In this document: positions 41,069 through 64,000 of the stretch, one piece after another
How positions within the stretch are numbered: position 1 is the stretch's first letter
How the letters are laid out: every line of letters starts with the position of its first letter
Origin: Rubellicoccus peritrichatus
GTDB lineage: Bacteria > Verrucomicrobiota > Verrucomicrobiia > Opitutales > Cerasicoccaceae
DNA: 64,000 bases
Direction: 5' to 3'
Assembly: GCF_033100135.1 (NCBI RefSeq)
Contig: NZ_CP136920.1
Coordinates: forward strand, 1 to 64,000
Translations under genes and position numbers: made by a program
Notes under the pieces: generated by a model
The model's input: the letters and a program-made list of their open reading frames with translations, nothing else
Told to the model about the DNA's origin: nothing
Database searches by the model: none

Positions 41069-44000
41069 CTAGTTACTCGGGACCAAGCGAGCGCGGAAGA
41101 AGGCCCCATCGAGGTCCTTAAAGATTAGTGTATCCACATTTTCCATACCTTCAGAAGTGTCCTCGGTGGTTTCATTGATTATCTCGAAGTCTTCGATAAG
41201 GTTCCATTCCCGGAGATCGGTGGAGAACTCGTAGACAACACCGACACCGGTGTGCTCCTTGCTTCGTTCGTGAGTGAGCTGAATGACCGGGCTGCCTGAT
41301 TCGGGCTTAACCTCGAAGCGGACCTTTGCGAAGGAGTCGCTTGGGGAATAGCCAAAGTAGAAGGCTTTAACCAATCGACTGTCAGCGGCATCGAAGCTTC
41401 CATAGATCCCGGTCCCGATGACGCCCTCTGGGCCGCCGGTGTCTTTGGCTACTAATGTGAAGTCTCGAATCGTGCCTGATCCACCAGATTTGGTAATGCC
41501 GACATAGCGCAGTGATCCATAAAGTCCAGAAGATGCGGTGACTGGTCCACTGACTGAAACACCATTTACAAAGAACTCCATCGTCCAGTTGGCAGCAACA
41601 GCTGCCCTGGTATCAAGAACGATTTTAACCGGAACAAACCCGGCATCGGGGACGTTGACTGCCGCAACGGTTGTGTTCGTTCCGGTGAAGGCATTTTCTA
41701 CGTAAGCGACACGCCCATTGTTTTCAGATGGAACACGAATCGATGCGAAGTCTGAATCGTCTACTACATTGAGATGATCGTTTGGGTTGTATTGCGCGAA
41801 GCTGATGGCGATCCCGGAGTCTGCGTCGCCCGTCGTGCATTCCACCTCGGCACTGAGAGTATAGATGTAGTCCGGTCGTATGGTTAAAGGCAACCAAAGA
41901 CCCGTATCGTCCTGGCTGCTGATGACTTCGCCGTCAGCACGGAAGGCAGTGGATGAGGAGTCCGCGTTGTCCCAGACTGCGTCATCAGTATTGAGGCTTG
42001 GGGATTCTCCGAGGAGTGCCTGACCATTTGCTCCTCCGAAGTAGTCAAGATAGGTGAGGTCAATAGGCTGTGATACACTGAATGACTGGGCCGTGCTGCT
42101 CCAGCTGCTGCCGTCTGCATTCGTTGCGTGGATACGATAGTGGTAGGTCATGCCTTCGATCAAGTCGTCGAGAACGACAGAGAAATCGCCAACACTTTGC
42201 GTCCCAAGATTGATGGAGTGATACCATTTTTTCGAATCATTGATACCATCGACCAGACCGTAATAAATAGCAATTTCCGTGGCTTGATTGCCGTCGTCGA
42301 TGAGGCTACCCTTAAAACGAGCCTTGCCATTGGAAACCGCACTGGCGGATAGAGCTTCGACTACTGGCGGCTGAGGAGCGAGGGTGGTGAAGCTCATCGC
42401 CGAGCTGAACGCGCTACCGGCACTATTTTCCGCGTAGAGGCGGTAGTGATAGGTGCTGTCCGCATCCAGACCTGTAAGGGTAACACTAAAGATGCTGTCT
42501 TGATTACCAAGATCGATAGAGGCATCCCATCCACTGGTGGTTTCGCCTTGATCCGCACTACCCAAAAGCAGGATCACATTCGGTGTTTCGCCACCGGTGT
42601 CCGTCACTTCGGCATGAACATCTGCAGTCGTCTTCGTTATCCCCATCGTGGCTTGTGCAACGATGCTCGGCGAGGAAGAAGGATTTCTTGCCGTGAAGCT
42701 AAAGTCTCTAACCGCACCCCCTCCTGTGTTTCTGGAAAGTCCAATGTAGCGGATATCACCAAAGTCACCATCGCTAACCATGCCAGGGTCTCGAACGGAG
42801 ACTCCATCAATAAAGAATTCCATGGTCCAATTAGCGGAGTCGGCATCAGTTGCATCGAGCACGATACTGACATGCACGTATCCATAATCGGGAACATAAT
42901 CAGTCGGAATCGTGGATGCTCCTGCGCTTCTTGTCCCTGTATAGGTGATAATGTTTCGGCCTTCTCCTTCAGATTTGATGAGAGCCGTGCCATAGGAATT
43001 TACACTCGTTGTATTCCAATGATTATTGGCATCGTATTGGGCATATGAGAGCGCAATTCCCTCGTTTCCTCGGTCTGAAATAATATCCGCACTTAGGGTG
43101 TAGACTTTCCCCTGAACAGGTGTGAATGGTAGCCAAATGCCTCTGCGCTTATTGGTGCCGATATAGCCATCGTCGTAGAAATAGCTAGCCCCGGAACTGT
43201 CGTTTTCCCAAACCTCAGAGCCCAAAGTATAATCGGGAGTGATTCCATTCATATGCACTCGTGATTCATTATTGAAACGATGTAAGTAGACGAGTCCGGC
43301 GTCCGGAGCGGCAACAAATTGCTGGGCAGTATCACTCCAGTTTTCGCCACCAGCGTTACTGACATGGATTCGATAGTAATATGTTGCGTTTGGCGTGAGG
43401 CCTTCAAGTAGAGTGCTTACACGACCGTTTCGGTGCTCTCCAATCTCGATCGCGTTTGCCCAGTTTCCAGCCACGTTGCCTCCGTCACTGTTTCCGTAGT
43501 AGAAAGTGACAGTTGTAGGATCATTACCATCGTCTGTGATATTGCCCTGAACCCTTGCAGTCGTCGAGAGAATCGCTAAGGCTGGTTTCGCCTCCACGAT
43601 CGGTTCACGCAGTTCGAGTGTCGTGAAGGTTTCCGTGGTATCGGCAAAAAATCCGCCCGCACTATTCTCGACGTAGAAGCGGTAGTAGTAGGTCGTGTTG
43701 TCGGACAGCGCGTCCAGTATGTGTGAGAAATCTCTGGAATGAATGCCGAGATCAATTTGTCCGTCCCAACCAAAGGTGGGGCCTTGATCCGTCAGACCGT
43801 AGAAGAGAGTGATCCTAGGCGATTGCCCTGCAGCCTCGATTACCTCGCCGTTGAGCGTCGCGGTGAAAACGGTAATATCCGTTGCTTCGTTAACCGTGAT
43901 TTCAGGCAATCCAATTGCTGGCGGTGCGACGGTTACGGTGATGGTGCCTCCGGAATTTTCGAAAAAAGGTGAGTAATCGCGACCGTTCAGATTTGAGAGA

Positions 44001-47000: not shown

Positions 47001-50000
47001 AGTGTCTTATCGTCTCCGTCACCGTTCCTGCGCCTTTCAAACATGATGAAATAATCCGTGCCTTCATTGAGAAAGATGTCAGAGCGGCCGTTGGAGTCGT
47101 TCATTGCATAGATCGCATTTCCCCAGTCGGCAGATGTGAAAAACAGGGTGTTTTTCCACTCGCCACCAACGTCCAAACGACGGACTCCGAAATCGAAATC
47201 ATAAAGGGCCGACAATACTACGTAATGCGCGTCTTCGTCCGGCAATGTATCATTCAGACGAATCCATGCTGAAGTAATATAGCTACCGTCACGAATACGT
47301 TCTTCTATACGACTCGATGTTTCACGGTCGACCAAATGCGGATTATCGGCGAATACCCAAGCCTTATTGGCATCAAGGCTGTAATTGCTGAACGGAGCAA
47401 TACCTTCGCTTGACCATCCAGCCGGATCAGTCATTTCCGCATCCGCGGAAAACCCATTCATGCCGTGATTCTGCACAACGGTGCCCGATCCATTTTCCAG
47501 TTTATAGTGTATGCCCTGGTCTTCGTGATCCGGGAAAGGCGCCGGATCAGGACCGAGAACCATAGCCGGATCAGCGGTAAAGTCATAAGAGCGATAAGGT
47601 TGCACGAGCCCATTTGCGCTTTCGTACTCATTGAGCTCGTCGATAATAAACTCAAAGAAATATTCAGCCTCACCGTATCGGTCGTCCCAAGTCACGATGT
47701 CGTTCTCACCTCTGAGCAAGAGCGCCTTGAAACCAGGAAGAAATTTGCTGATCTCCTCTGGTGTCCCCCTTGAAAGATCGTAATATTCATGCCAACGGGC
47801 TACCTTATTAAAGAAAGTTTGCTGCCCAGATAACCCCTGAAGCCTTCCATTGCTGAATCGACTGAGGACGCTGTTGATGTCATCCGCAATCGTGCCCAGC
47901 TCTTCCACCGTAAAAGTTTCGGTGAGGATATCCATCGTCTGCGACTCATAGACGTGGCCACCAGCACCCTGATATCCCTGATCTCGAGGATAAACACCCC
48001 CTGAGACATCATCGCCCAGGATATCCAGAATTTGTTGAAACTGAGCATCGCTAATGTGGTCGCGAACGTTATTAATATCATCTTGAACGTTACCATACAT
48101 AGCGTTACGCGCAGTGTTACTGGTCTCCATCACGTAGCAATCAAGGAGCGCCATGAAGTGAGGCGCGAGGTCGGGGCCAGAGAGTCGGCTTAACGCCCGA
48201 AAAGCGCCAACTCGCACAAACCAGACGTATTCATATTCCAAGAGCGGAAGCAGAGCATCGACGTTGTCGCGGACAATATCTGTCGGCATTTTATTCATAG
48301 CCCAGGTGGCTGCGTCCAGCTCCCAGTGATCGGAATCAGGGTCGCGAAGTATATCGAGAACGTATGGCGCCATTCGGCGATAGTCATCTGAGTCGTAATC
48401 GAAGTCTTCAAAATCTGAGAGAAAAAAAGGCGCCAGCCCGGTGATTCCTTTGAGGCCTGCAGTGCGGACGCGGGCATCATCGCTTTCCATGGCTTCGATA
48501 ACAAGATCCACGGCCGGATCGGTCAGGTCATTGTCGGGGTCACCGTCGAAATTAACGGGGTCGAGGTTGGCATCAGTTGCGCGGTGACCAATAGCCATGG
48601 ACGCATGATAGCGAACCTTAGGATGCCAATGGCGCATGTGCTTGCGAATGTCGTCTAGCGAACTATTGGTCTTCCACTCGCCCATCCAGTCTCCATAGTC
48701 GGCGTCGGTGTAACCTTCAGCATGAGTGATGAGGAAATACTCGTGATGTTTGGGAATGACTTCTGGAACGTGGCGGATAACACTGTGGACCGTGGGAGGC
48801 GCACCGGTCATGCGCAGTTGGTTGCGAGCTGCGGTATAATTGAGCCCCACCATGGCCCCCCAGCTATTGTTACTGTAACGGGTCGAACTAAAGGCAGGCA
48901 GCAACGTGAACGTACCGTCGTAGTCCCGGCAGAGTTCAAAATACCAACGCATGGTGTCCATCATGTAGCGATAGGAATCGTCATCCCCATTCAGGCCGCT
49001 GGTGATAGAGCGCCAAAGGACATTGCCAAAGTTTCCTGAGTGTCCGCCTTCGAAATTGTCGGCATTGTAGCCATCCATCGCCCCGATCATTTTGGCGGCG
49101 GAAGCGTAGGGCTCATTCAGCATGGAAAGACCGGCGCCAATTAACGAGAGCTTACCATTAACGGCTCCTCCTTCACTATAGCGGTGGTCACCATAAATCG
49201 GGGCGCCAACACCCGCCGTCTGATAGTAATATCGGAGAGACTTCTCAAAGTCAGCATCGGTCATGTCGACTCCACATTCGCGCGCAAGAGCAACACCGAC
49301 GAAAACCTGGCCACCAACCGCGTTTACCAGCCCGCTGCCAACGTAGTCCGCTTGAACGTACCCAGTTTGCCCGACCGACCAGCCATGACCCCACCCACCG
49401 ACGGATTCAGTTGCGAAGGCTTTATTGACGAAGTTCTGCAAATTCGGAAGGACTCTCGTATCACCGGTCCGGATACAATACTCTGCCAACGCAATGTTTT
49501 GAAGAGAACTGTACCAATTATTTGTGCGGCTATTATTAGCGCCAGTTCTTACCTCTTGGACATCTAAGCTATCCATTAAAGTCCGAACCGCATCCAGGTG
49601 CTCTTCTTCTCCAGTTGAGAGCAGAAAAAGTGCGATAAAGGACGACATATGGCCACCCGATTTCCAGGTCAGCCAGTCGTTAATCATCGCTACATACTTA
49701 TCCCCTGTTTTTTGGATAATAAGATCCGACTTCGGGCAGCTCTTTGGCCAGGTAGCACTGTAAGCGGTGTTGGTTATCGCCAGTTGCACGGTTCTATCTT
49801 CGCGACTTCCACCGCGCTCAACATCAAAGACAATTTGACCATCACCAGCCTCTGAATCGGTTATCGCGTTACCCAAGGCTACACGAGGATCGTGATGTCT
49901 GCCACTGTCTATATTTGTGAAATAACTATCTGCAAGCGAGGTGCCATTGACAGCCCAAATTTTGTCACCGACTTCGATGAAGCCATCGGCTGGGCCGCCG

Positions 50001-50155
50001 CCACGGACATCTGTAACGGTAACGTAATCATCGCCGGAGTCCCAATCAGCGGTAAATCCCGTTGGGCCGACTTGAAAGGGGTGGTTACTGACGGCCTGGG
50101 CTCTGGAAGCTCCAAGAACAAAAATGAGCAAAAGAAAAATTGGCCAACGCTTCAT
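41069..50155 (-). CDS. Giant secreted multidomain protein, paralogue 1
   Basis: About 3,028 residues, started at 50155 (MKRWPIFLLLIFVLGASRAQA, a clear signal peptide); an open frame extends 17 codons upstream. Order: PDZ-like (about 24-125), an alpha/alpha toroid-like domain resembling DUF6288 (130-480), HEAT-like repeats (500-760), LamG-like (880-1115), a degenerate FN3-like copy, two PKD-like domains (1245-1430), a beta-rich segment, FN3-like copies 1-2, an adhesin-like beta region (1830-2070), FN3-like 3-4, LamG-like, FN3-like 5-6, LamG-like and a C-terminal module (2915-3028). FN3-like units show VxIYYGxxDxG...WDxxIDLG...TTYYYRxYAEN. No transmembrane anchor or known sorting tail is seen. 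Function unknown; adhesion, glycan binding or a surface enzyme is possible. Confidence 0.85.
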   Translation of the reverse strand: MKRWPIFLLLIFVLGASRAQAVSNHPFQVGPTGFTADWDSGDDYVTVTDVRGGGPADGFIEVGDKIWAVNGTSLADSYFTNIDSGRHHDPRVALGNAITDSEAGDGQIVFDVERGGSREDRTVQLAITNTAYSATWPKSCPKSDLIIQKTGDKYVAMINDWLTWKSGGHMSSFIALFLLSTGEEEHLDAVRTLMDSLDVQEVRTGANNSRTNNWYSSLQNIALAEYCIRTGDTRVLPNLQNFVNKAFATESVGGWGHGWSVGQTGYVQADYVGSGLVNAVGGQVFVGVALARECGVDMTDADFEKSLRYYYQTAGVGAPIYGDHRYSEGGAVNGKLSLIGAGLSMLNEPYASAAKMIGAMDGYNADNFEGGHSGNFGNVLWRSITSGLNGDDDSYRYMMDTMRWYFELCRDYDGTFTLLPAFSSTRYSNNSWGAMVGLNYTAARNQLRMTGAPPTVHSVIRHVPEVIPKHHEYFLITHAEGYTDADYGDWMGEWKTNSSLDDIRKHMRHWHPKVRYHASMAIGHRATDANLDPVNFDGDPDNDLTDPAVDLVIEAMESDDARVRTAGLKGITGLAPFFLSDFEDFDYDSDDYRRMAPYVLDILRDPDSDHWELDAATWAMNKMPTDIVRDNVDALLPLLEYEYVWFVRVGAFRALSRLSGPDLAPHFMALLDCYVMETSNTARNAMYGNVQDDINNVRDHISDAQFQQILDILGDDVSGGVYPRDQGYQGAGGHVYESQTMDILTETFTVEELGTIADDINSVLSRFSNGRLQGLSGQQTFFNKVARWHEYYDLSRGTPEEISKFLPGFKALLLRGENDIVTWDDRYGEAEYFFEFIIDELNEYESANGLVQPYRSYDFTADPAMVLGPDPAPFPDHEDQGIHYKLENGSGTVVQNHGMNGFSADAEMTDPAGWSSEGIAPFSNYSLDANKAWVFADNPHLVDRETSSRIEERIRDGSYITSAWIRLNDTLPDEDAHYVVLSALYDFDFGVRRLDVGGEWKNTLFFTSADWGNAIYAMNDSNGRSDIFLNEGTDYFIMFERRRNGDGDDKTLLHLYEPTQNIWLTSNGDHTLGNKDLDTRSFHVGIGSIDSDVLDPATRFPGLIDSVQMWSHVNKVNPQTFAGRLTLARQNGIKQITEQPGVYQEAVNVDGTSALIHNHLVKTGPIGSVLTIYYGDEDGGMDPANWDHSHTFPASDSLDPLEYVIEGLAPDGVYYTRAYVQNPVGAMLEYWTPEPLVITTLTAAGDTEDPVAHAGSNVVVIDDDRSGTATVTLDGSASTDNIAIETYTWTDQSNNVLSTGSDYIQTVELTPGFYIITLTTTDFQGNSSQSQFEVDVFEGVDDTAPTADAGVDQQLVDYDQDGFCMVEFDGSGSGGNGVTPANYTWEIEGNVVATGENPYVTLPVGNHFVVMTVEGPGGAYNQDSFEVEIISADEAMLTWAQLDRLDNHVIIAAQDFNGMGEGLVKGSGERRYTESSAPNREVPFWPFIADIEEDRDSVKAGVTELNDPLGQEAFIVDTRGSGLSISSWWYYSDPIDVSAYSNCRIAAEMQLYVGNYSRSSFYRSKIHMELENGDIEVQELFFKTDFASTGPFIRTYDIPSDVKYVWIEVSGRSLSRWMGVDNIIVVGQVPEPATVVVQNPDQINPTTARVKGNVIDNGRENPRIKVYYGSEDRGETTVGWDGVADLGTRGGSFTTTLTGLSELTTYYYRVHAENAAGETFSPTAASFRTASTTPIDPPSFTVLPVTDLTTTSATINGRVDDTGGDTPRVRIFFGVQDRGNTTSGWDHEFDLGYVDGDFSQLITGLDPYRAYNYRIYAQNFGNSVWSDLGVFATKNPEDSIYISIQSNVDMSAASWDRGSIPGVGDIAIIDDNLRFDFSDGWSFDADNTLLSKQIRIEDSITFNDITLYEGSELQVYASYDTVAFNEIHVLESGKLTYRENRSGAHFTANTMIGDGELIWSKNGGGESQLNVGDMTGFTGLLQIGGLHQSSTPLDLTQDIAIEDASFAMNIVGNGNRFVLSGDIAVTNLTVDKDYFSTGTYTLDTANNPGAIDLSNLNGRDYSPFFENSGGTITVTVAPPAIGLPEITVNEATDITVFTATLNGEVIEAAGQSPRITLFYGLTDQGPTFGWDGQIDLGIHSRDFSHILDALSDNTTYYYRFYVENSAGGFFADTTETFTTLELREPIVEAKPALAILSTTARVQGNITDDGNDPTTVTFYYGNSDGGNVAGNWANAIEIGEHRNGRVSTLLEGLTPNATYYYRIHVSNAGGENWSDTAQQFVAAPDAGLVYLHRFNNESRVHMNGITPDYTLGSEVWENDSSGASYFYDDGYIGTNKRRGIWLPFTPVQGKVYTLSADIISDRGNEGIALSYAQYDANNHWNTTSVNSYGTALIKSEGEGRNIITYTGTRSAGASTIPTDYVPDYGYVHVSIVLDATDADSANWTMEFFIDGVSVRDPGMVSDGDFGDIRYIGLSRNTGGGAVRDFSFTARNPSSSPSIVAQATMGITKTTADVHAEVTDTGGETPNVILLLGSADQGETTSGWDASIDLGNQDSIFSVTLTGLDADSTYHYRLYAENSAGSAFSSAMSFTTLAPQPPVVEALSASAVSNGKARFKGSLIDDGNQATEIAIYYGLVDGINDSKKWYHSINLGTQSVGDFSVVLDDLIEGMTYHYRIHATNADGSSWSSTAQSFSVSQPIDLTYLDYFGGANGQALLGESPSLNTDDAVWDNADSSSTAFRADGEVISSQDDTGLWLPLTIRPDYIYTLSAEVECTTGDADSGIAISFAQYNPNDHLNVVDDSDFASIRVPSENNGRVAYVENAFTGTNTTVAAVNVPDAGFVPVKIVLDTRAAVAANWTMEFFVNGVSVSGPVTASSGLYGSLRYVGITKSGGSGTIRDFTLVAKDTGGPEGVIGTGIYGSFDAADSRLVKAFYFGYSPSDSFAKVRFEVKPESGSPVIQLTHERSKEHTGVGVVYEFSTDLREWNLIEDFEIINETTEDTSEGMENVDTLIFKDLDGAFFRARLVPSN

Positions 50156-51473: not shown

Positions 51474-51531
51474 AATTTGTTTTAGCGTAGCCGATTTAAT
51501 AATCGAAATTCACCAGAGAACAGGCCACTAC

Positions 51532-54500
51532 CTAGGAGCCATCATAAGGAGCCAATCGAATTCTGAAAAATTGATACGTCCCACTGTCCGTAGGGACATC
51601 CATTTCGACGCTTTCCATATCGTCTGAGAGATTCTGAAGACTTTCAGCATCAAATACGTTGTAGATGTGCCAATCCACAAGATTTGCTGAGCGTTCGTAA
51701 ACCGCCAGAACACCATTATGATTTTTGTATCTATCGTACTTAAGTGTCACAGAATCTTCACCAAACTGAAGATCGACTTTGGGATTCCGTGCAAGATCCG
51801 GCGATAGACCGAAGAAATATGCTTTGAGTAGATTTCCACCAGCGTCAGGGAAGTTACTTAGAGCCGCAGTTGCTTTGTCGACCGGTGGTGTCGTGTCGGG
51901 CAGCTGATCGTCCACCGTAAGGGTGAAGTCTTTAATACCGCCCCCAACGTCGCTAGTCTTACCTAAACCGACGTAGGCGATGTCACCATAGGAACCACTG
52001 GCAACCGTCTCCGGACCGCGAACCGATTCACCATCGATGAAGAACTCCATCGTCCAGTTGGCGGCATCCGCATCGGTTGCATCCAGAACGATACTGACAG
52101 GCACATCGCCAAAGTCGGGCACCTCACTGGTGTCAACGCTCTGCTCTCCGCTGCTGTAAATGCCCGTGCTGGTGAATGCTTCGCGGTTGAAGCTTTCGCC
52201 CAGTATTTCAACGTAGCCGTAAACTTTGTTAGCCTTCGGATAGTAGTTTCCATTTTCTTCGGCAAAACTAAGCAAGAAACCAAACCTAGCATCGTCATGA
52301 TACTCAACATCGAGAATTGCGCTCAAGGTGTAGATATTGCCCGCGGTGGGCGCAAATGGCAGAAAGATACTATTGTGGCCAACATCCGCCGTAAAAGAGC
52401 CATCGGCATAAAAGCCATTGTTCGAGGAATTATGGTTTTCCCATACTTCGGAGGCCGGCGTTATGTCAGGCATTGAGCCCAGGAGCTCCGTGCCGGCGAG
52501 ATCATCCAATATGTCCAAATAAAGAACGTCAGGATCAAGGCTGACGCGGAAACTCTGCGCGTTACTGCTCCAGCTTTCGCCAGTCAAATTGGAGGCATGA
52601 ATCCGATAGTAGTAAGTCATGCCTTCAATGAAATCGCTTACTACCATTGAAAAAGCGCCTTCCGTGACCTCCCCGAACGAGGTCGAATGATACCACTTAC
52701 TTGGATTTTCTCCGCCATCGACGAGCCCATAGTAAATTGTGGCGGAGGTACTCGAACCGCCGTCATTGACAAGCATGCCATTTAAGCGCGCCCTGGTTCC
52801 ATAGATACCAGTCGCAGGTCGAACCTCAACCGTAGCCGTTTCTGGGACAAAGGGGTCTCCCGTCGGCTCGCTAATACTTACCCGGTGCGTATCGACGGTC
52901 ACACCACCCTTTTCATCACTTACGGTTAGTGTAATGTCATAGACACCCGCTGCTGGAAACGTATAGGTCAAGGATTCCCCTTCGGACAAAACGTTGCTGT
53001 CCCCATTATCCACGTTCCAAATAGTAATCAAGTCATCGCCATTGAGATCCTCAAGCGTTGCCGTGAACGTGAGATCCGCTCCGACATCGGCTTTGGTCGG
53101 ACCATCATCAATAGACACACTCGGGGCGAGGTTGGAGGGAAAAAAGCTGTCCGATTCGACCAAACTTGTGGCTCTCGTAGTCTCATAGAAGGTTTTAATG
53201 AATCTCCCGCCGCCAAAAGTCATGTCTCCGACCGGATCCCAACTCTCGAAGCCAGGACTGAAAGCAAACGGAGTGACTGGTGATTCTGTCCAGTTGATTC
53301 CATCCTCGGAAATAAGGTATACAAAAGTATCATTGGTTTCACGGTGAAATGCCACAAGGAGATCTCCATTTGATGCCAAGGAGTCAGTATGATTATTATG
53401 AGCGTAGGGCAAGCCGTCTACTTGCGTCCACGTAAGCCCGAGATCCGTGGAATAGTAGATCCCAACGCTGGAAAAGCCCATCACGAATACACCATGATGA
53501 TAAAGAACGTGAACCGGTTTGCCATAGCCTGTTGACGGATCGAACTCGGAGAATTGGTTGGTCCAACTAGCACCGTCCGTAGAGCGCCATACGCCCGAAT
53601 CCGAAATAGCGATGAAGACGCCACCGCCAAAGCCAATCTGTGTGATGTCCTCAGAGGTAGGCGCCGAGGCGGTTGTCCAACTGGAGGCATCGCTGGAGTA
53701 TTGAATCAACCCGCCATTGCCCACCGCAACAAAGAGGCCATCACCATAAGCGATATCATTCAGTGATTCGGTTTCTCCGGTTGTTTGACTGGTCCAGTTG
53801 TAGCCGTCGGAAGATGTATTAATGTAACTATTACTGCCGCCATCGCCACCAGTGATGATGTATAAACCGTCAACGTAGATACCGTCGTTGTTTTCGGAGT
53901 TGGTAGTTCTGAAATGAATCCAGTTGTAGCCGTCCAATGAAGTCGAAATCCTATTGTTGCTGCTGGTGGACGTCATGACAAAACGACCATTCAGGTTTTC
54001 GATGTAATCATTTTTATAGGTTTCATCGACCTCGTGGGCTGACCAGTTGGTTAGGCCGTCCACGATGCTAATGGTTTCCGACAGGACGACTACACCGCCT
54101 TTTTTGTCACTTATGGTTACGGAAAGCTCGTAGGCCCCGGAGGCTCCCCAATTGTGGTCAAGGGAGCTCGTGCTTTCGTGAATAGCTCCATCGTCGGTGT
54201 TCCAATGGTAGACAAGCTCATCGCTATCCAGGTCCAATACGTCGTTGACGGTAAAAGTGTAGGTTTTATTCGGCTCCATGTATTCGGGTATCGTCATCCC
54301 CGAAGCGGTAGGCGCATTGTTAGCTGGATCGGAACCAAACTCGATCTGCACGTCCAGCCACTCATCCGGATGCGTCCCGCCTTTCGCGATTGTCGTGATG
54401 TAAAAATCTCCTACGAAGTCGTAGTAGGTTTGACCAATCAGGAGTGGAGCGTCTTTGGAGTCGTCTCTATAGTGCTCACTCTCTGGTGTCATATCGATGA

Positions 54501-56310
54501 GAATGGCGCGATCGGCAAGACTAGTCTGTTGCCAGTTGATATAAGCACCATTGCGGAAGTAATCATTGTAGTTCGCCCGATAGCCAACCCACAGATACTG
54601 AGACCCCGTGCGATTGCGTTTAATACGGATACCCCGTAGCAATGATTCCGTAGTGCCCGCATCATCGAGTTGATAAATTCGGTAAACGCCCGAATCATCC
54701 ACCGCATCGTCCTGATTGAGGAAGTCCCAATGCACGCCAGCTTCGAACCACTGCAAGCGATTCCGCGCCTGAGGGTGAAAAAAAGCTTCGTCGTAATCTG
54801 CGATCCCCATAAAGTCAGTGATGTCTCCGTATTCCAGCCTATCGCCAATACCGTTGGCGACGTTACCGTTCGTTACGGTTGGGTCGGTTACTCTGGTTAG
54901 GTCAACATCCCATAAGTTGGCGTGTCTTAGGCCGTAATTATGCCCGAATTCATGGATAAAAATATCGGGGTCATCACGGTGCTGAACCCATTGACCGCGC
55001 CCGCCAACTTCTGCCCGCCCTGTCCAACTCAGCCAAAGAGCTGGCATGTGAATACCGATTATATCGTAGTCGTATTCGTTAAACCCAGGATTAGCCACAC
55101 GATAAACGCTTAGTGCGTGACTATATATATAGCGATGCGCTATGGAAGAGCTGATTGCCTGATAATAAGTGGCGTCATGCGGCAGTCGAACCACGCTCCC
55201 TGGCACCTCGTAGTCCAACGAAGTTTTTCCAAAGGACATATCTTCGAAAACATCCGAAGTCCGCTGAAGAATACCTTCGAGTTCGCTTTGCGAAATTTTT
55301 GCTCCTGACCGATCAGCAAAATCTACTCGAAGGTAGAGCACTTTTTTGACGCCGTGAGTCGTGTCCATGGATACCAGTTCCGAACCCTCAAGAGCATCGG
55401 CCACTGATGTGGCGCCCAGGAAGCCTTCGGTAAAATACGCCGTTTCAAAAAGGATGTCTGCCCGGCTGTCCGGTCCGATTGGTTCATCCAAAAGAGCCAG
55501 CTCTTCGTTAAGCATCAGCAAGGATTCTTCCGCAGCAAAGAGCACCCGGCGGTTCCCCATCAAAGCAGTCACCGGCGCTTCTCCTAATGGCTCTCCGGTT
55601 CGCAAATCAATAGTAGGGTCAGGGTTAATGATCGGCAGATGCGACAACGTGTCTGCATCCTCTGTGCTGAGAGGTTGCATAGGATTTTCCCGCACTGCTG
55701 AGAACTCATCCAGAGTGATGCCCTGTAGCGAGATGTTCGCTTTGCTGGTGTGTGCAAGGCGGCGACCGTAGACACTTGCCACGTAATAATCACCGTCGAA
55801 TTCAAGATTGTAGCTGGTTGTTCCGTGACCGTGGTCAAAGTTACAAGTCGGCAGAACGGTTAGTGAAGCGACCTTGGAAAACGGCTTCTCGACGAAAGGA
55901 ACAAGCTCCTGAGGCAGACGCTCATAGTCAGTCCAAGTGATCGATTCTTCCAGCGCTTGCTCGGGGTCTTGCTGAATAAGCAGCTTCATTCGCTGGTAGC
56001 GGTGCTGCAGCATGTCCAGGACTTGATTGTCGACTACCAGCTTGTCCGACGCCAGCCATTCAGTGAAACTTTTTGCTACCTCCGGATGTATGGATGAAGA
56101 CGGGATAAGCTCGGCTGATTGCTGCTGACTTAAGTCAGGGTGATGCTCGCAGCCATGAGTACAGGAATGATGTTCTTCTATGGATGCTTCGACTACCTTC
56201 TGTGAGCTTACCATTCGTTCACCCAAGGGTCGCTTCAACAATATGGTAGTAAGTGCAACAATGCATAACATTAAAAAGAGTACAACTGCTGATTGACGTT
56301 TTACATACAT
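51532..56310 (-). CDS. Secreted zinc metalloprotease (M6/M11-like) with PKD, FN3-like and C-terminal modules
   Basis: 1,592 residues. An N-terminal hydrophobic signal or anchor (about 6-28) is followed by a His/Cys cluster (HHSCTHGCEHH, about 47-57), a propeptide-like region (to about 330), and a gametolysin/M6-like protease domain. The zinc site is HEFGHNYGLRH with His453, Glu454, His457 and His463; the downstream ITDFMGIADYDE looks like the Met-turn. Then come a PKD-like domain (680-760), a Gly/Trp-rich propeller-like repeat region (765-1070, units such as YGDGLFVAVGNGG), another PKD-like, one FN3-like copy (1155-1255), a LamG-like domain and the C-terminal module (1490-1592). The last three match the end of giant paralogue 1. 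It lies 47 bp downstream of giant paralogue 2. Confidence 0.85.
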   Translation of the reverse strand: MYVKRQSAVVLFLMLCIVALTTILLKRPLGERMVSSQKVVEASIEEHHSCTHGCEHHPDLSQQQSAELIPSSSIHPEVAKSFTEWLASDKLVVDNQVLDMLQHRYQRMKLLIQQDPEQALEESITWTDYERLPQELVPFVEKPFSKVASLTVLPTCNFDHGHGTTSYNLEFDGDYYVASVYGRRLAHTSKANISLQGITLDEFSAVRENPMQPLSTEDADTLSHLPIINPDPTIDLRTGEPLGEAPVTALMGNRRVLFAAEESLLMLNEELALLDEPIGPDSRADILFETAYFTEGFLGATSVADALEGSELVSMDTTHGVKKVLYLRVDFADRSGAKISQSELEGILQRTSDVFEDMSFGKTSLDYEVPGSVVRLPHDATYYQAISSSIAHRYIYSHALSVYRVANPGFNEYDYDIIGIHMPALWLSWTGRAEVGGRGQWVQHRDDPDIFIHEFGHNYGLRHANLWDVDLTRVTDPTVTNGNVANGIGDRLEYGDITDFMGIADYDEAFFHPQARNRLQWFEAGVHWDFLNQDDAVDDSGVYRIYQLDDAGTTESLLRGIRIKRNRTGSQYLWVGYRANYNDYFRNGAYINWQQTSLADRAILIDMTPESEHYRDDSKDAPLLIGQTYYDFVGDFYITTIAKGGTHPDEWLDVQIEFGSDPANNAPTASGMTIPEYMEPNKTYTFTVNDVLDLDSDELVYHWNTDDGAIHESTSSLDHNWGASGAYELSVTISDKKGGVVVLSETISIVDGLTNWSAHEVDETYKNDYIENLNGRFVMTSTSSNNRISTSLDGYNWIHFRTTNSENNDGIYVDGLYIITGGDGGSNSYINTSSDGYNWTSQTTGETESLNDIAYGDGLFVAVGNGGLIQYSSDASSWTTASAPTSEDITQIGFGGGVFIAISDSGVWRSTDGASWTNQFSEFDPSTGYGKPVHVLYHHGVFVMGFSSVGIYYSTDLGLTWTQVDGLPYAHNNHTDSLASNGDLLVAFHRETNDTFVYLISEDGINWTESPVTPFAFSPGFESWDPVGDMTFGGGRFIKTFYETTRATSLVESDSFFPSNLAPSVSIDDGPTKADVGADLTFTATLEDLNGDDLITIWNVDNGDSNVLSEGESLTYTFPAAGVYDITLTVSDEKGGVTVDTHRVSISEPTGDPFVPETATVEVRPATGIYGTRARLNGMLVNDGGSSTSATIYYGLVDGGENPSKWYHSTSFGEVTEGAFSMVVSDFIEGMTYYYRIHASNLTGESWSSNAQSFRVSLDPDVLYLDILDDLAGTELLGSMPDITPASEVWENHNSSNNGFYADGSFTADVGHNSIFLPFAPTAGNIYTLSAILDVEYHDDARFGFLLSFAEENGNYYPKANKVYGYVEILGESFNREAFTSTGIYSSGEQSVDTSEVPDFGDVPVSIVLDATDADAANWTMEFFIDGESVRGPETVASGSYGDIAYVGLGKTSDVGGGIKDFTLTVDDQLPDTTPPVDKATAALSNFPDAGGNLLKAYFFGLSPDLARNPKVDLQFGEDSVTLKYDRYKNHNGVLAVYERSANLVDWHIYNVFDAESLQNLSDDMESVEMDVPTDSGTYQFFRIRLAPYDGS

Positions 56311-56357
56311 GAAGAATAATGGGGTTTGAAATTATGATTTAGTATCAGTGTTCGGCA

Positions 56358-59300
56358 TTAAGGGGTAGTGCCATTGTTAATCTGAATACGGATGAAAGTC
56401 TTTTCCCCAACTGAGGGCATTTCTATAGTTACACGTTCCATGCCTTCCGTTGTGTCTTCAGTGGTTTCAGTATAAGTTTCCAGCGGATGCCAATGGTCCA
56501 GGTCTAAGGAGTATTCGTATTGGACAGTGACTCCATCATGGTTTTTACGACGTTCGTAACGACTAGTAATCGTTGCTCCATCAGCTTTCATTTCTACATC
56601 AATTAATGAGGTAAAATCTGATTTCACAGGATCTCTCCCGAAGTAAAACTCCTTGATCATGCTCAGTCCATCGTTGTCGAAATCGATGTTTGGATTACTG
56701 CTTAACTCAGATTGTTGCTCATCTGTAAGAATCATTGCTGGCCAACTAGCAAAGTCGGGCTCCACGTTCTCTGCGACAAAACTGCCTGCAGTTTGAGAGA
56801 AGGTCGCCCCTTCCGAATTCTCAGCGAAGATTCGATAATAGTAGGTTTTCCCTTCCTCCAGACCGGTTATAAGGTGGTTGAACTCCGTTTCCACTACTAT
56901 CCCTAGATTCACAGAGTTGTCCCAGTTCCCGGGGATGTCTTCTCCATCCGACTCACCATAATAGAAAATGATATTTGGGTCTTCGCCACTAAGATTCATG
57001 GTGAGTTGCCCCCGGAGGTTTGCCTGATCCGGAGTGATCCCATCTGCCGGAATAACCTCAACTACAGGTTTGTTTGACAAGGTAACAAAGCTGGCCACTT
57101 CGGAGTAGGTTATTCCATGGGAATCTCTGGCACGGATTCGCGTGTAGTAACGCGTTCCTTCGTCTAACCCGGTGAAGCTGGTGCTAAAGTCTCCCACTTG
57201 ATGCCTGATGTTAGAACTGCGATTCCATCCTAATCCTACTGGCCCGGGGTCGCGAATTCCCAGATAGAAAAGTATGCGGGCTATGCCATCAGGGTCTGAA
57301 GTAGAAGTGATGACGCCGTTAATGGTTACTGAGTTGTAACTGATGGATTCGAATGAAACAAATGCAGCCGTGGGCGGTGGAATCTCTAAGGTTTTGAAGA
57401 GCTGGGCGTGACTGAAGGTGTTGCCTTCGGAATGTTCTGAGTAGATGCGGTAATAGTATTCGGTGTCGTCATCCAGCCCAGTGAGCTCCTGACTGAAGGC
57501 GCCATTCTGTATTCCAAGGTCAAAAGAGCCAAGCCAACCACTGGTGGTTTCGCCGCGATCGGTTTCCCCGTAGAAAATAGTGATATTCGGATCTTCACTG
57601 GTCATATTTACCGTGATCGCGCCACGAAGGTTTGCTGAACTAGTTGTCAGATTGTTAGCAGTTAAAATTTCGACAGTTGGCGGTGGGATGTCGACTGTGG
57701 TGAAGCTTGTTGCGGTCGAAGAAAATCTGGAGCCTTCAACATTTGCGGCCAGGAAGCGGTAGTAGTAAGTGGTGCCATTGCTCAAGCCATTCAGGTCGTA
57801 ATCGAATGGGCCACTTTGTGGCCCAAGATCAACAGCTACATCCCAATCATCGGCTTCTTCACCTTCATCGGATTGACCGTAGTAGAGTGTCAGGTTCGGG
57901 ATATCCGAACTGCCATTGAGGGAAACATCTCCCTGTAAAGTGGCCGAGGTTGTGGTAATGCTGGCCGCAGCCAAAGCGGTCGGGAGTGGAGCGGGAATGT
58001 CCACAGTTGTAAATTCGGCCGCGAACTCAGAGAACCGGGCGCCACCAGCATTTACTGCATAGATTCTATAATAATGTGCTGTTCCATTTCGCAAGCCTGT
58101 CAGCTCTACGCTAAAGGGGGCCGTTGGCAATATGCCCAAATGAACGGAACCGTCCCAACCGCTTGTCGTTTCACCACGATCACTTTCTCCATAGTAAATG
58201 GTGACACTTGGTGCGTCACCATCAGGATCAATAACCGCGCCATGAGCAAAGGCCGTTGTCTTAGTAATTTCAGTAGCAGGCAGCGCGGCCAAGGTTGGAC
58301 CAGGAAGATCAATTGTCTGAAAGCTCTCTTGGGTGGGTGAAATGTTTGAGCCCTGAGCATTCTCAGCATAGAGGCGATAGTAATAGGTTCGGCCGTCGTA
58401 TAAACCGGAGAGGTCATAACTGAACTCGCCGGATTGAATACCGAAATCAATCGAGCCATCCCAACCGTCGGTTACTTCGCCCTGGTCGGTTTCTCCATAA
58501 TATAACGTAACATATGGAGATTGCCCGCCCGTATCGGTCACCTCTCCATGTATGGTCGCGCCGTAACCTGTAATATTTGTCTCGGGATAACTGACAATTA
58601 TCGGCGCGGACATAGCAGGGGCTGCTTCGGTCACTGTTATGGAGCCATAGCGATCATTGAAGAATTGACTGTAATCTCGCCCATTGTAGTTCGACAGATC
58701 CGTTGCATCAGGATGGGCGAGAATTGACAGCGTGTAAGTACCAGCTTCAAAAACGTCGCCATTGATTGTTAAAGCAGTCACCGCAATATCGTCCCTGAGT
58801 GTATAGGTCGTTCCATCATCGAGAATTTCCATTGCGAAAGATGCATCCTCTGGAGCGATTTCGTGTTGGAGATTCACAGATGCGCCATTACTGGATCCAC
58901 CTCCGATAATGAGCCTTCCAGTGAATCCTGTCATATCCGGACAGATGATATCCGCATGGTCATAGACGCTCGAAGACGAACCTGGCCTCCACCAATACAA
59001 ATCCCCATCGCCGACGATCTTGTTTACGAAGATATCAAAATTGCTTCGACCACTACGATAAGTGATCACCCCTTCATGCACCGTGATTTGATCAAATCTC
59101 AGATCGGTGTGACTGCTATATTGGTTGATGGTACTTCCCTTATAAAGGATGACATCCTGAAAGGTGATCGAGTTCTCGACTCGAGCCTGATTGCTCAACG
59201 AAAGGACATCAGCATCAAAACTAGTGGAGTGGCCCATCTTGTATTGGAGGTATTTGTTCTGGATGGCAATGTCTCCAACATCAGGTATTGAGCCACGATC

Positions 59301-62300
59301 CCAAGATGCTGCCGTCATGCTGGTGTTGCTTTGAACAGAAATGAAAATAATGTCCCCTGGCGCCTGTGTGACAAAACTTTCCGCCGAGCCGGACCAGACG
59401 CCGCCTCGAAAATTCTCTGCGTAAGCACGATAGTAATAGATACGGTAGGGATCTAGATCCGTAATGGTGTGGCTAAATCCGGCTCCGTGTGGGCCAAGGT
59501 TAATTACGCCATCCCAGTTTTCAGCTGTCTCGCCGGCATCCTTAGTACCATAGTAGATGTAAACGGTTGGGTTTTCGCCACCAGTGTCGTCAACGCTGCC
59601 ATTTAAAGTAGCACTGGTAAGAAATACGTTGGTCGCAGCAGAGACAGAAACGGCCGGAAGCGCGACAGGGAGTATACTATCGGAACGGAAGCTCGACACT
59701 TCCGAGAAAATGCCGCCGCCGGAGTTCTCGGCGAAAATCCGATAGAAGTAATACGAGCGTTCATCCAATCCGCTGATAACTTGGCTAAAGCTACCGGATT
59801 GCAAACCAAGGTCGATCGAACCATCCCAGCCTGAATCAGATTCACCACGGTCTTCCTTGCCGTAGTAAAGAATAATGTTAGGCGCTTCCCCTCCGGTGTT
59901 AGTAACTTGTCCGCGAAGGTTGGCAGTCGTTGCTGTGATAGTATCTGCCTCCAGGATTCTAATCTCGGCGGCATTTAGAGCAACCGTGGTAAAGGTTGAT
60001 AGGTCTGAAAAAGTACTGCCGCCGAGATTATTACCATACACGCGATAGTGATAAGTGGTCCCTTGGTCCAGGGAACTGATTGTGCTGCTGAAGCTCCCAC
60101 TCTGAGTTCCCATGTCGATGCTATGATCCCATCCCAGTGTGCTGGCACCACGGTCGTTCTTACCGTAGTATATCGTAACGCTGGGAGTATCCCTTCCTTC
60201 ATCAGTCACCTCACCATTTAGTGTTGCCGTAAAGGAAGTGATGTCGCTTGCACCATCAGCTACGATTAGCGGGGCGGTGATATCAATTGTCTGAAAAACA
60301 CCTGCACTGGAGAAACTTTCGCCGCCACTATTTACAGAGTAGATTCGGAAATAGTAGGTAGTGCCTTCATTGAGCCCTGTGACTGTGGTACTAAAACTCC
60401 CATTACGAGTTCCCATATCCACCTCGTTTTCCCAGCCAATAGTTGATTCACCACGATCGGTGGTGCCATAAAATATCTTCACCAACGGGTTATCTTTACC
60501 ATTATCGGCCACGCGCCCACTGAGCCTCGCATCGTAAAAATCGATTCGGTCTGCGCCACTCAACGTCACGGTTGCTGGGGTCGCATTTTCTCCAACCAGC
60601 ATGATGTTATCCAGGCCGACCCATTGATAACGTGAATAGGTTTCGCCCTCAGCTTTTAGGTAGACGGAAACGGTATTATCCGGAAGGTCAGCCGACTCGA
60701 TCGTCGTGCCTCTGGAACCCATGTTGCCGTAGAGCCCGTAAAGTTGTATTTCAACGACACTATTGTCATCCAAGGTACAGACTGCTTTGGCGTTCGTGTT
60801 ATTCGTTGGGTAGTAGCTGGCGCTTCGGTCCAGCATAAGTGTTACAGATAGTGAGAGATTGATCGCCTCTTTCGGGACAATGATGGGTTCCGTAGTGAAT
60901 ACGAATTCGCCCCCACTGCCCGTTGGGATAAAGTAGAAGGCCTCGGATGCCGGGCGGAAATTCAAGGGAGGAACTCCCATTAAGGCAGTGTCGCGGCCAA
61001 GATTGCCAGCGTCACCAATCTTGTAGGCGGAGAACGGCCAGAAGTCAGCTTCACTATTGGGTGCGCCGGGGTCGGTGTAATCTCTTGAAATTGGGTCCAC
61101 TACAGCTTCATCGTTAATCCCGGTAAAGTCCTGAATGGCGAAGACGAAGTGATCGTCAATTTCATCATCGTCCATTTCAGTCCACCTTACGATGGCTTCT
61201 CTTTCGGAGAGAACTTCAACCTTCATCCAGTCCTGGTTAGTCGAGCCATCAGCGCCTTCGACGGTTAAAATGACGAAATGCTCACCATAGCCGAGTGATA
61301 CGAATGGATTAACACCCGTGGCAATGACCTGGCCCTTTGATTCCCAAGTATATGCCACCGGAGTAATGCCGTTGGATCCACTCTCATTGCCGTCAAGTTC
61401 AACCAGATAGGCGCCGTCTCTGTTATAATCGGAAACGATTTGATCGAGTCCTGCCTTAGCATTGGGCGCCGTGCTTACATTGCCATAAATAACGTCGATC
61501 TCAAGATGGCTCTGTGCCGTGTTGCCGTTGAAATCTTCCACTGTCAGGGTAAGCGTATGATACCCGTAGGGAACTTCCAGTGATTGGATCGAATTGGACC
61601 CGGTTGATAGAACAGCGCCGTTTTCATCAGTCCAAGTGTAAGACTGAATGCCAATGTTGTCAGAGCTTCCGCTTGCGTTAATGGATAGAGTCGCAAAGCC
61701 ATTACGATCCGAGTCCGTTTTGACGATGTTACTGAAGCTTGCTGCAACCGGTGGCTCTATATCGTCATCGATGTTTAAGGTTGAAAATACAATGGGTTGA
61801 GGGCTCCAGTATTCGAGCATCGCACCGTAGGGATTTTGGACATAAGCTCGAGCGTAATATGTTGTTTGCGGACTCAAACCGTTAAGGTAGGCCGTTCTTG
61901 AGGCCAGGGTTTGAGATCGGGAAAATGTGTATGAATGATCCCAGGCCGCCGGGTCCATCCCTCCATCACTCGTTCCATAGTAAACGGTCAGGAAGGAGCC
62001 ATTCGGGAGAACCCGAGCCAGCGTAGTATCGATACGCGCACTTATCCCATCAACATAACTTGGCTTGAGATATGCCGCCGGTTGTTCTTGCACTTGGTAG
62101 ATCGCATCTTGCCGGGCTAGAGTGTATTTCTCAGCGAAGTTTACTGGCGATGTGGAATGAACGCGCGACCACATTTGCACGGAGTCAATCAGTCCGGGAA
62201 AGCGGGTATCTGGATCGAGCACATCACTGTTGATTGAGCCAATACCGACATGGAATGAACGCGTATCTAAATTCTTATTACCCAGACCGGATCCATGGCC

Positions 62301-64000
62301 ACCATTCGAAGTCAGCCAGATGTTTTCAGTTGGTTCATAGAGATGTAGCAAGGTCTTGTCGTCGCCATCCCCATTGCGGTGACGCTCGAACATGATAAAG
62401 TAATTCTTACCTTCTTCCAAAAAGATATCAGGGCGGCCTGATGAGTCATTCATTGCATAGATGACATCGTTGCTTCCCCAATTGGAAGAATGAAAGAAGA
62501 GTGTATTCTTCCACTCTCCTGCGACATCCAAACGGCGAACACCAAAGTCGAAGTCATAAAGTGCAGAGAAGGCGACGTAGTGAGCGTCCTCATTCGGTAG
62601 TGTGTCATTCAGCCGAATCCAGCAGGTCGTCACATAAGAGCCATCTCGAATGCGATCTTCCATCCGGCCAGTCGTGACTCGGTTTCTTAGATGAGGATTA
62701 TCCGAAGCAACCCAGGCTATGTTCGCATCCAAACTATGGTTGCTGTAAGGTGCCAAACCAACATTGGACCAACCATTGGAATCTGTCATTTCTGCATCGG
62801 CGGAAGGGCCGTTCATCCCGTGATTGAGCACCAGGGTTCCAGAGCCCGCTTCCAGTTCATAATGAATTCCCTGGTCTTCATCATCAGGGAATGCTGCTGG
62901 CCCCAGAACGCTAGGGGGCTCTACGGTGAAGTAGTTGGATGTGGCAACGTCGGCAATCCCATTGGCAAGTTCATAACTTAGCACAACGTCCTCAGACCAG
63001 ATCGATAAATCCTCGGCATCGCCGGACTGCGAACCATTGTTAAAGTCGATGTATCTACCGTAACTGCCTGAAAGGATAGCTTTGAAACCCGGTACTAAAA
63101 AGAAGAAATTTTCATAACTCTCGTCCTCAAAATCGTTATCCCAATACCAATCGGCTAATTCATAGACCACAGCGTAACCGCCACTGGGTCCTTGAATCAG
63201 AGGGTTGGTTAACCGGCTTATCGATGCGTTGATGTCATCAGCCACCGTCTCCAACTCTTCGACGGAAAATGTTTCAAGCAAGACGTTCAGTGTTTGCGAA
63301 TCGTAATCGTATCCGCCCGATTTTTGATAAGCATAGTCCCGAGGATAATAGCCACCGACCAAATCGTCTCCCAAAATATCCCGAATGTTTTGGAGCTCAG
63401 CTTCGGTCAAGTAGGGGCGCGCCTTATCGATTGCCGAAATGACAGTCCATTGCATACTTACTCGTGGTTGATGGTGATATTCCTGGACATAAGCATCGAG
63501 TAGGTCCATCACATAGGGTTTGATATCGACACCCGAAAGTCGACCCAATGCCCTTACTGCGCCAAGGCGCACCCACCAGCTGTATTCGTAGTCAACGTAG
63601 GGAAGGATTGCATCGATGTTATCACGTATGATGTCGACAGGTACGACAACCATCGCCCAGGTCGCAGCATCTAGCTCCCAGTGGTCCGAATCCGGGTCGC
63701 GTAGAATATCCAGCACGTAGGGAGCCATGCGGCGATAGTCATCTTCGTCATATTTAAAGTCCGCGAAATCAGAGATGAAGAATCCGCGAAGCCCGGTAAT
63801 CGCTTTCAGTCCGGCGGTACGCACACGCGCATCATCACTCAAGATAGATTCAATGACGAGGTCGACTGCTGGGTCGGTCAGATCGTTGTCAGGATCGCCG
63901 TCGGAGTTCAAAGGACTCAGGTTGTCGTTGGTTGGGGATTCCCCCAAAGCAATCGAAGCGGCATAGCGAACCTTGGGGTGCCAGTGGTGCATGTGCTTGC
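56358..64000 (-). CDS. Giant secreted multidomain protein, paralogue 2 (partial, runs off the window)
   Basis: At least 2,547 residues; the N-terminus lies beyond the right end. The first ATG in view (63992) is internal: its upstream codons KH continue the alignment with paralogue 1 (KHMRHWHPKVRY). Order: HEAT-like repeats (64000-63200), LamG-like (62900-62150), a degenerate FN3-like copy, two PKD-like domains, a beta-rich segment (61200-60560), four FN3-like copies, an adhesin-like beta region (59350-58600), six further FN3-like copies (58590-56760) and the C-terminal module (56700-56361). The N-terminal PDZ and toroid domains are expected off-window. The HEAT region is nearly identical to paralogue 1 (RRMAPYVLDILRDPDSDHWE in both). 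It probably shares a transcript with the protease. Confidence 0.85.
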   Translation of the reverse strand, partial: KHMHHWHPKVRYAASIALGESPTNDNLSPLNSDGDPDNDLTDPAVDLVIESILSDDARVRTAGLKAITGLRGFFISDFADFKYDEDDYRRMAPYVLDILRDPDSDHWELDAATWAMVVVPVDIIRDNIDAILPYVDYEYSWWVRLGAVRALGRLSGVDIKPYVMDLLDAYVQEYHHQPRVSMQWTVISAIDKARPYLTEAELQNIRDILGDDLVGGYYPRDYAYQKSGGYDYDSQTLNVLLETFSVEELETVADDINASISRLTNPLIQGPSGGYAVVYELADWYWDNDFEDESYENFFFLVPGFKAILSGSYGRYIDFNNGSQSGDAEDLSIWSEDVVLSYELANGIADVATSNYFTVEPPSVLGPAAFPDDEDQGIHYELEAGSGTLVLNHGMNGPSADAEMTDSNGWSNVGLAPYSNHSLDANIAWVASDNPHLRNRVTTGRMEDRIRDGSYVTTCWIRLNDTLPNEDAHYVAFSALYDFDFGVRRLDVAGEWKNTLFFHSSNWGSNDVIYAMNDSSGRPDIFLEEGKNYFIMFERHRNGDGDDKTLLHLYEPTENIWLTSNGGHGSGLGNKNLDTRSFHVGIGSINSDVLDPDTRFPGLIDSVQMWSRVHSTSPVNFAEKYTLARQDAIYQVQEQPAAYLKPSYVDGISARIDTTLARVLPNGSFLTVYYGTSDGGMDPAAWDHSYTFSRSQTLASRTAYLNGLSPQTTYYARAYVQNPYGAMLEYWSPQPIVFSTLNIDDDIEPPVAASFSNIVKTDSDRNGFATLSINASGSSDNIGIQSYTWTDENGAVLSTGSNSIQSLEVPYGYHTLTLTVEDFNGNTAQSHLEIDVIYGNVSTAPNAKAGLDQIVSDYNRDGAYLVELDGNESGSNGITPVAYTWESKGQVIATGVNPFVSLGYGEHFVILTVEGADGSTNQDWMKVEVLSEREAIVRWTEMDDDEIDDHFVFAIQDFTGINDEAVVDPISRDYTDPGAPNSEADFWPFSAYKIGDAGNLGRDTALMGVPPLNFRPASEAFYFIPTGSGGEFVFTTEPIIVPKEAINLSLSVTLMLDRSASYYPTNNTNAKAVCTLDDNSVVEIQLYGLYGNMGSRGTTIESADLPDNTVSVYLKAEGETYSRYQWVGLDNIMLVGENATPATVTLSGADRIDFYDARLSGRVADNGKDNPLVKIFYGTTDRGESTIGWENEVDMGTRNGSFSTTVTGLNEGTTYYFRIYSVNSGGESFSSAGVFQTIDITAPLIVADGASDITSFTATLNGEVTDEGRDTPSVTIYYGKNDRGASTLGWDHSIDMGTQSGSFSSTISSLDQGTTYHYRVYGNNLGGSTFSDLSTFTTVALNAAEIRILEADTITATTANLRGQVTNTGGEAPNIILYYGKEDRGESDSGWDGSIDLGLQSGSFSQVISGLDERSYYFYRIFAENSGGGIFSEVSSFRSDSILPVALPAVSVSAATNVFLTSATLNGSVDDTGGENPTVYIYYGTKDAGETAENWDGVINLGPHGAGFSHTITDLDPYRIYYYRAYAENFRGGVWSGSAESFVTQAPGDIIFISVQSNTSMTAASWDRGSIPDVGDIAIQNKYLQYKMGHSTSFDADVLSLSNQARVENSITFQDVILYKGSTINQYSSHTDLRFDQITVHEGVITYRSGRSNFDIFVNKIVGDGDLYWWRPGSSSSVYDHADIICPDMTGFTGRLIIGGGSSNGASVNLQHEIAPEDASFAMEILDDGTTYTLRDDIAVTALTINGDVFEAGTYTLSILAHPDATDLSNYNGRDYSQFFNDRYGSITVTEAAPAMSAPIIVSYPETNITGYGATIHGEVTDTGGQSPYVTLYYGETDQGEVTDGWDGSIDFGIQSGEFSYDLSGLYDGRTYYYRLYAENAQGSNISPTQESFQTIDLPGPTLAALPATEITKTTAFAHGAVIDPDGDAPSVTIYYGESDRGETTSGWDGSVHLGILPTAPFSVELTGLRNGTAHYYRIYAVNAGGARFSEFAAEFTTVDIPAPLPTALAAASITTTSATLQGDVSLNGSSDIPNLTLYYGQSDEGEEADDWDVAVDLGPQSGPFDYDLNGLSNGTTYYYRFLAANVEGSRFSSTATSFTTVDIPPPTVEILTANNLTTSSANLRGAITVNMTSEDPNITIFYGETDRGETTSGWLGSFDLGIQNGAFSQELTGLDDDTEYYYRIYSEHSEGNTFSHAQLFKTLEIPPPTAAFVSFESISYNSVTINGVITSTSDPDGIARILFYLGIRDPGPVGLGWNRSSNIRHQVGDFSTSFTGLDEGTRYYTRIRARDSHGITYSEVASFVTLSNKPVVEVIPADGITPDQANLRGQLTMNLSGEDPNIIFYYGESDGEDIPGNWDNSVNLGIVVETEFNHLITGLEEGKTYYYRIFAENSEGATFSQTAGSFVAENVEPDFASWPAMILTDEQQSELSSNPNIDFDNDGLSMIKEFYFGRDPVKSDFTSLIDVEMKADGATITSRYERRKNHDGVTVQYEYSLDLDHWHPLETYTETTEDTTEGMERVTIEMPSVGEKTFIRIQINNGTTP

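Follow-up and report, generated by a model that had tools for sequence, protein, structure and literature searches.

The C-terminal tail shared by three very large predicted proteins of Rubellicoccus peritrichatus (GCF_033100135.1, contig NZ_CP136920.1) is a Verrucomicrobiota-wide domain of exported-looking proteins, so far nameless, and the three copies at this locus are near kin through local duplication, not components of a dedicated machine. The window, meaning the whole analysed stretch of 64,000 nucleotides (positions 1–64,000 of the contig), holds two giant genes, a metalloprotease gene and a beta-barrel gene that a sequence-only reading had joined into one export or attachment system. 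That reading was right that both giants and the protease end in one homologous module: the last ~100 residues align with 22 invariant columns, and tblastn with the P0003 tail recovered those of P0001 (42% identity, E 7e-14) and P0002 (31% identity, E 3e-10).

The tail domain and its carriers

Within the genome, 44 matches to the tail were found at E<1e-3 with a profile built from 12 copies and 52 at E<1e-6 with one built from 72, and at least 48 further copies lie outside the local locus and a third giant gene described below. The tail occurs mostly once per protein, and in the open frames read, nearly all copies examined stop 0–6 aa before the stop codon. The carriers are mutually unrelated and of extracellular type, including polysaccharide-directed proteins (a sialidase-type BNR protein with LamG, a GH16 with CBM96, a polysaccharide lyase), esterases, reprolysin- and matrixin-type proteases, a cyclophilin, and adhesin-like or repeat proteins with BspA-type leucine-rich repeats, cadherin-like domains or LTD. 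They range in length from 304 to 6515 aa with a median of 1025, the largest seen (~6500 aa) lying at genome ~2.571–2.591 Mb. A signal-peptide-like N-terminus, called solely by a crude hydropathy rule, was present in 34/40 carriers compared with 6/17 long control genes of the window. Searching plasmids by tblastn gave no match.

The profile search across the phylum, suggested in the sequence-only reading, found the tail to be widespread and not private to the locus, with matches at E≤1e-3 in 103 of 194 sampled Verrucomicrobiota genomes, many of which had at least 24 scored candidates. The best matches from 29 other genomes of the phylum all (29/29) ended within 16 aa of the stop codon. An Opitutaceae-derived alignment used to scan 84,980 GTDB species genomes yielded 157 confirmed loci, and the 80 that were kept were all titled Verrucomicrobiota or a subgroup of it, apart from one titled only “bacterium”; the named loci span Opitutaceae, Akkermansiaceae, Chthoniobacter, Verrucomicrobiales and Kiritimatiellales. 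Because all 80 are Verrucomicrobiota in this sense, restriction of the tail to the phylum is likely as judged by sequence searches with this narrow, Opitutaceae-biased query, and the narrowness of the alignment means that the named loci lean toward copies with the canonical loop or a TDVxYAV motif. Among full-length matches in closed frames at these loci, 73/82 end within 10 residues of the stop, and about one in ten is internal, in most cases with a further module or a second enzyme domain on its C-terminal side. A PHYxEVxxGPxAG-type module follows internal tails at three loci (L148, L155, L163), and a RAVGPxLxxxGV...VEVYEV module closes one protease homologue (L254). The apparent recurrence of these modules suggests that Verrucomicrobiota have several C-terminal tail families.

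The structure prediction that the earlier reading had proposed gave a confident fold. AlphaFold2 applied to the giant 2 tail with 72 aligned copies returned a mean pLDDT of 93.3 and a pTM of 0.84, with three short helices and then six strands. The domain, of ~110–135 residues, begins with a helical lead-in, continues through an EF-hand-type loop of 12 residues and closes with an Ig/FN3-like sandwich of six strands. In most copies the loop, DxDxDGxxNxxE, lies between helices with the spacing of an EF-hand loop, and the last strand ends with a conserved FxRLxV; the most conserved positions are W7, the loop, P45, W91 and F123-x-R125 of the last strand, while copies are otherwise highly divergent in sequence. 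All four acidic ligands characteristic of EF-hand and TSP3 loops (positions 1, 3 and 5, with E or D at 12) were found in 25/33 copies from this genome and 26/29 from the phylum, the loop counts in the conservation alignment being inflated by the search pattern. Among the three window copies all four occur only in giant 2, and the degenerate loops of giant 1 and the protease mean that calcium is not essential to every copy. The best solved structural neighbours were cytokine-receptor domains (VIA-align Z 7.8, rmsd 2.9 across 78 residues), and the best Foldseek E was 6e-3, with none below 1e-3; since Z is under 8 and no Foldseek E is significant, the claim is limited to a common sandwich arrangement. 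Sequence searches of the PDB gave only chance-level matches, EF-hand loops among them. No Pfam or NCBIfam model covers the tail in scans of 32 and 15 copies, respectively, two of the copies scanned against Pfam matching TSP3_bac. Matches to F5/8 type C occurred in 4 of the 32 (best E 5e-4, 20.6 bits against a cut-off of 28.2), and membership of that discoidin family was rejected on scores under the gathering cut-off. Literature searches, with most subscription papers outside their scope, returned no description of the tail or of DUF6288.

The locus and its local duplication

The four genes sit at the positions given in the sequence-only reading; features of the locus are given in Table 1.

Table 1. 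Genes and domains of the locus, in window coordinates.
Feature	Position	Strand	Description
Giant 1 (P0001)	41069..50206	-	3045 aa; signal-like N-terminus, PDZ-like, DUF6288, HEAT, PKD, FN3 repeats, tail
Giant 1 tail domain	41072..41395	-	EF-hand-type loop degenerate
Giant 1 C-terminal block	41072..42382	-	FN3-like, ~200-aa domain and tail
Giant 1 DUF6288 domain (PF19805)	48800..50023	-	Pfam
Barrel (P0004)	50748..51473	+	Phenol_MetA_deg-type outer-membrane beta-barrel; no tail
Metalloprotease (P0002)	51532..56310	-	1592 aa; secreted, metzincin-like, HExxHxxGxxH; PKD x2, FN3-like, tail
Metalloprotease tail domain	51535..51855	-	EF-hand-type loop degenerate
Metalloprotease C-terminal block	51535..52851	-	Local duplicate of giant 1 block (by sequence comparison)
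Giant 2 (P0003)	56358..64000, continues beyond window edge	-	~3.1 kaa open frame; HEAT, PKD, FN3 repeats, tail
Giant 2 tail domain	56361..56762	-	Helical lead-in, EF-hand-type loop DFDNDGLSMIKE, Ig-like sandwich

The two giants are paralogous as had been proposed (54% identity across 1347 aa), and FN3-like repeats are indeed common to them and the protease. Giant 2 starts near genome position 65645, outside the window, as does its DUF6288 domain. A third giant paralogue, 3763 aa long and ending in the same tail, is encoded at 4.24 Mb (genome ~4.244–4.255 Mb), next to ABC-transporter genes and a large autotransporter-like gene rich in glycine codons. DUF6288 scores above the Pfam gathering cut-off in all three giants (280, 309 and 253 bits), and a contig scan with a whole giant as query gave no confirmed match. 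The metzincin motif of P0002 reads HEFGHNYGLRH, in agreement with the consensus given in Table 1, and its M11 profile score of 19.4 bits is just below the cut-off of 21. P0004, encoded on the strand opposite to the giants and protease, is 250 aa long (241 aa counted from the first ATG) and matches Phenol_MetA_deg at 30.8 bits against a Pfam cut-off of 22 (E 4e-7).

Several features of the surroundings were observed. The gene dnaA (window 1–1395) opens both the window and the single contig, which places the locus ~41–66 kb into the contig and so perhaps close to the replication origin. Next to giant 2 on its upstream side, a gene at genome 65998–70581 encodes a 1527-aa esterase-like protein ending in a generic tail that is not close to the three window tails, so that four tail genes lie inside 30 kb. 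Starch-type genes at window 17534–25050, one alpha-amylase/pullulanase-like and one a GH31 with five CBM25, have no tail, and a 230-aa ORF ends in a weak PEP-CTERM match (20.2 bits, slightly under cut-off) at window 26079–26153. One tRNA was the sole RNA feature found, and an explanation by RNA features was rejected.

A 40-tail tree places the three tails of the window and that of the third giant on one side of a branch (99/93), and the tails of giant 1 and the protease are sisters (100/92). The likeness of these two extends over their last 440 residues (39–40% identity, E 1e-74), whereas protease homologues elsewhere align to the N-terminal and middle parts of the protease and not to the 440-residue block. 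As far as sequence comparison indicates, the block is a local duplication or exchange, and the close likeness of the three window tails is because of this event. AlphaFold with a two-sequence input returned a pLDDT of 50 for the 437-residue C-terminal block.

The earlier reading had proposed the protease as a possible maturase and the barrel as a possible port or anchor, and had named failure of the four genes to co-occur in relatives as one result that would end the idea of a system. We give hardly any credence to such a four-gene arrangement, although the genes are physically close and the tail is held in common. Among 132 genomes of the order, 6 have a barrel homologue, 25 a homologue of the protease and 17 DUF6288, strong DUF6288 scores being confined to a handful of the 17, and none of the barrel genomes other than R. 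peritrichatus itself appears in the protease or DUF6288 lists. Barrel neighbourhoods elsewhere had no giant, protease or DUF6288 genes and no conserved neighbours. Because barrel, protease and DUF6288 do not co-occur, the system idea fails; P0004, which itself ends without the tail, is judged not to be part of the tail system. Of 19 protease homologues elsewhere, 16, from several families, end in the tail and one has another module at its end, which makes the protease a tail carrier with nothing to mark it as a tail processor. The genome-wide occurrence of the tail likewise does not fit a system private to four genes.

Candidate functions of the tail

What survives of the earlier reading is a common export or attachment role, which is plausible because carriers look exported, the tail is C-terminal and it is no named sorting tail, yet this role would belong to the genome and the phylum and is not specific to the locus. 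The likeliest role, to which we give about even odds, is that of an export-associated docking or surface-retention domain, similar in function to the type IX CTD but unrelated to it in sequence. Under such a model Sec would export the carrier, the tail would then fold in the periplasm or outside the cell, calcium would stabilise the majority of copies, and the tail would be recognised by a common partner in the outer membrane region or in a surface matrix, so that cargo would be carried across or held at the cell surface; we infer the docking or sorting function, the calcium dependence and any partner machinery. In support of docking we count the copy number, C-terminal position, diverse carriers, signal-like N-termini, spread through the phylum and fold, together with the retention of loop ligands, the lack of overlap with PEP-CTERM and the retention of the tail on most protease homologues. 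Counted against it are the loss of loop ligands from two of the three copies at the locus and the internal copies, about one in ten, a pattern that a signal acting at a free C-terminus would not favour.

Much the same overall pattern would also be expected from a binding domain without a sorting role. A somewhat unlikely alternative is thus an accessory domain that binds a ligand, for example a glycan in the cell's own matrix or in the substrate, and that is placed last by chance and served by no sorting machinery. The predicted Ig-like sandwich, the action of many carriers on polysaccharides, the existence of internal copies and the sub-threshold matches to the galactose-binding-like F5/8 type C family would all fit, but such a domain does not readily account for near-absolute C-terminal placement in single copy on unrelated carriers, cyclophilin and LRR proteins included, and no sugar-binding family scored above cut-off. 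Distinctly improbable is a structural cap, protecting against proteolysis or closing the beta-rich chain of large exported proteins, in which the conserved residues would serve the core only. The strongest columns are aromatic or core-like plus the calcium loop, copies diverge strongly and median carrier size is large, as a cap would predict; however, carriers of only 300 aa also have the tail, and a cap would not need the one fold that is kept phylum-wide on unrelated proteins.

Exosortase offers a further candidate, with the tail as an alternative substrate signal of that pathway, since the exosortase family was found in 99/103 tail-positive and 45/91 tail-negative genomes in a comparison that ignores phylogeny and genome size. 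We think this very improbable. The genomes are not independent, so the correlation is not taken as proof, and common ancestry and lifestyle may be all that lies behind the association. Moreover, the tail and PEP-CTERM sit on different proteins, and one genome without an exosortase match (G113) has two good tails (best E 2e-14). G113 shares a family/genus code with several small Akkermansia-like genomes; Akkermansia belongs to Verrucomicrobiota.

Returning to the docking domain, a broader proposal, which we hold to be rather unlikely, is that Verrucomicrobiota possess an undescribed outer-membrane secretion or surface-attachment pathway of their own; if so, the tail would be its signal, carried by tens to hundreds of cargo proteins in each genome. 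One unnamed C-terminal domain that marks dozens of exported proteins in a genome would offer a way into how large enzymes and adhesins of Verrucomicrobiota reach the surface and stay there: it would predict the exported set, and could be used in reporter-fusion tests and in phylogenetic profiling for the machinery, as when PEP-CTERM led to exosortase. Some members of the phylum specialise in degrading sulfated algal polysaccharides (PMC8857213).

Comparison with known C-terminal systems

PEP-CTERM, which occurs in the same genome (~60 matches with a median open frame of 260 aa, and five exosortase matches), resembles the tail in being a C-terminal homology region on dozens of exported proteins. 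The tail differs as a folded soluble domain of more than 100 residues on different and larger carriers (median ~1025 versus 260 aa). Identification of the tail as PEP-CTERM was rejected on the lack of a PEP motif, membrane helix or basic end; no tail matched PF07589 in the Pfam scan, and the PEP-CTERM matches in the genome lie on other proteins, with no same-strand tail closer than 600 nt to any of them. Here the earlier reading, which held the tail to be neither PEP-CTERM nor another named sorting tail, agrees with the Pfam and NCBIfam scans.

Bacterial TSP3, EF-hand and dockerin domains share the DxDxDGxxNxxE loop, and the TSP3_bac matches noted above are in keeping with this, but in the tail a single loop is joined to an Ig-like sandwich, with no repeat array, and two of the three local tails have lost the loop. 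Likeness to FN3/Ig-like domains such as cytokine-receptor domains and beta-2-microglobulin extends to the general sandwich arrangement only, with Z below 8 and no Foldseek E below 1e-3.

In function the tail would resemble the type IX secretion CTD, a class defined in part by necessity and sufficiency for secretion and, in type A, by cleavage. Such CTDs are C-terminal on many Sec-exported Bacteroidota proteins of varied function and size, number dozens to hundreds per genome and are confined to one phylum (PMC10202324). Neither type A (PF18962/TIGR04183) nor type B (PF13585/TIGR04131) models matched in scans of 32 tails with Pfam and 15 with NCBIfam, and a search for SprA_N, of the T9SS core, found 0 of 194 genomes with the control genomes silent too. 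The tail is also unlike a CTD in its EF-hand-type loop in front, its occurrence in Verrucomicrobiota and not Bacteroidota, and its occasional internal copies. Nevertheless both are sandwiches of ~80 residues, and the tail too is C-terminal on many exported proteins of unrelated functions and very different sizes, with signal peptides by a crude heuristic, in tens to hundreds of copies per genome and apparently within one phylum, so that by analogy the tail perhaps works like a CTD.
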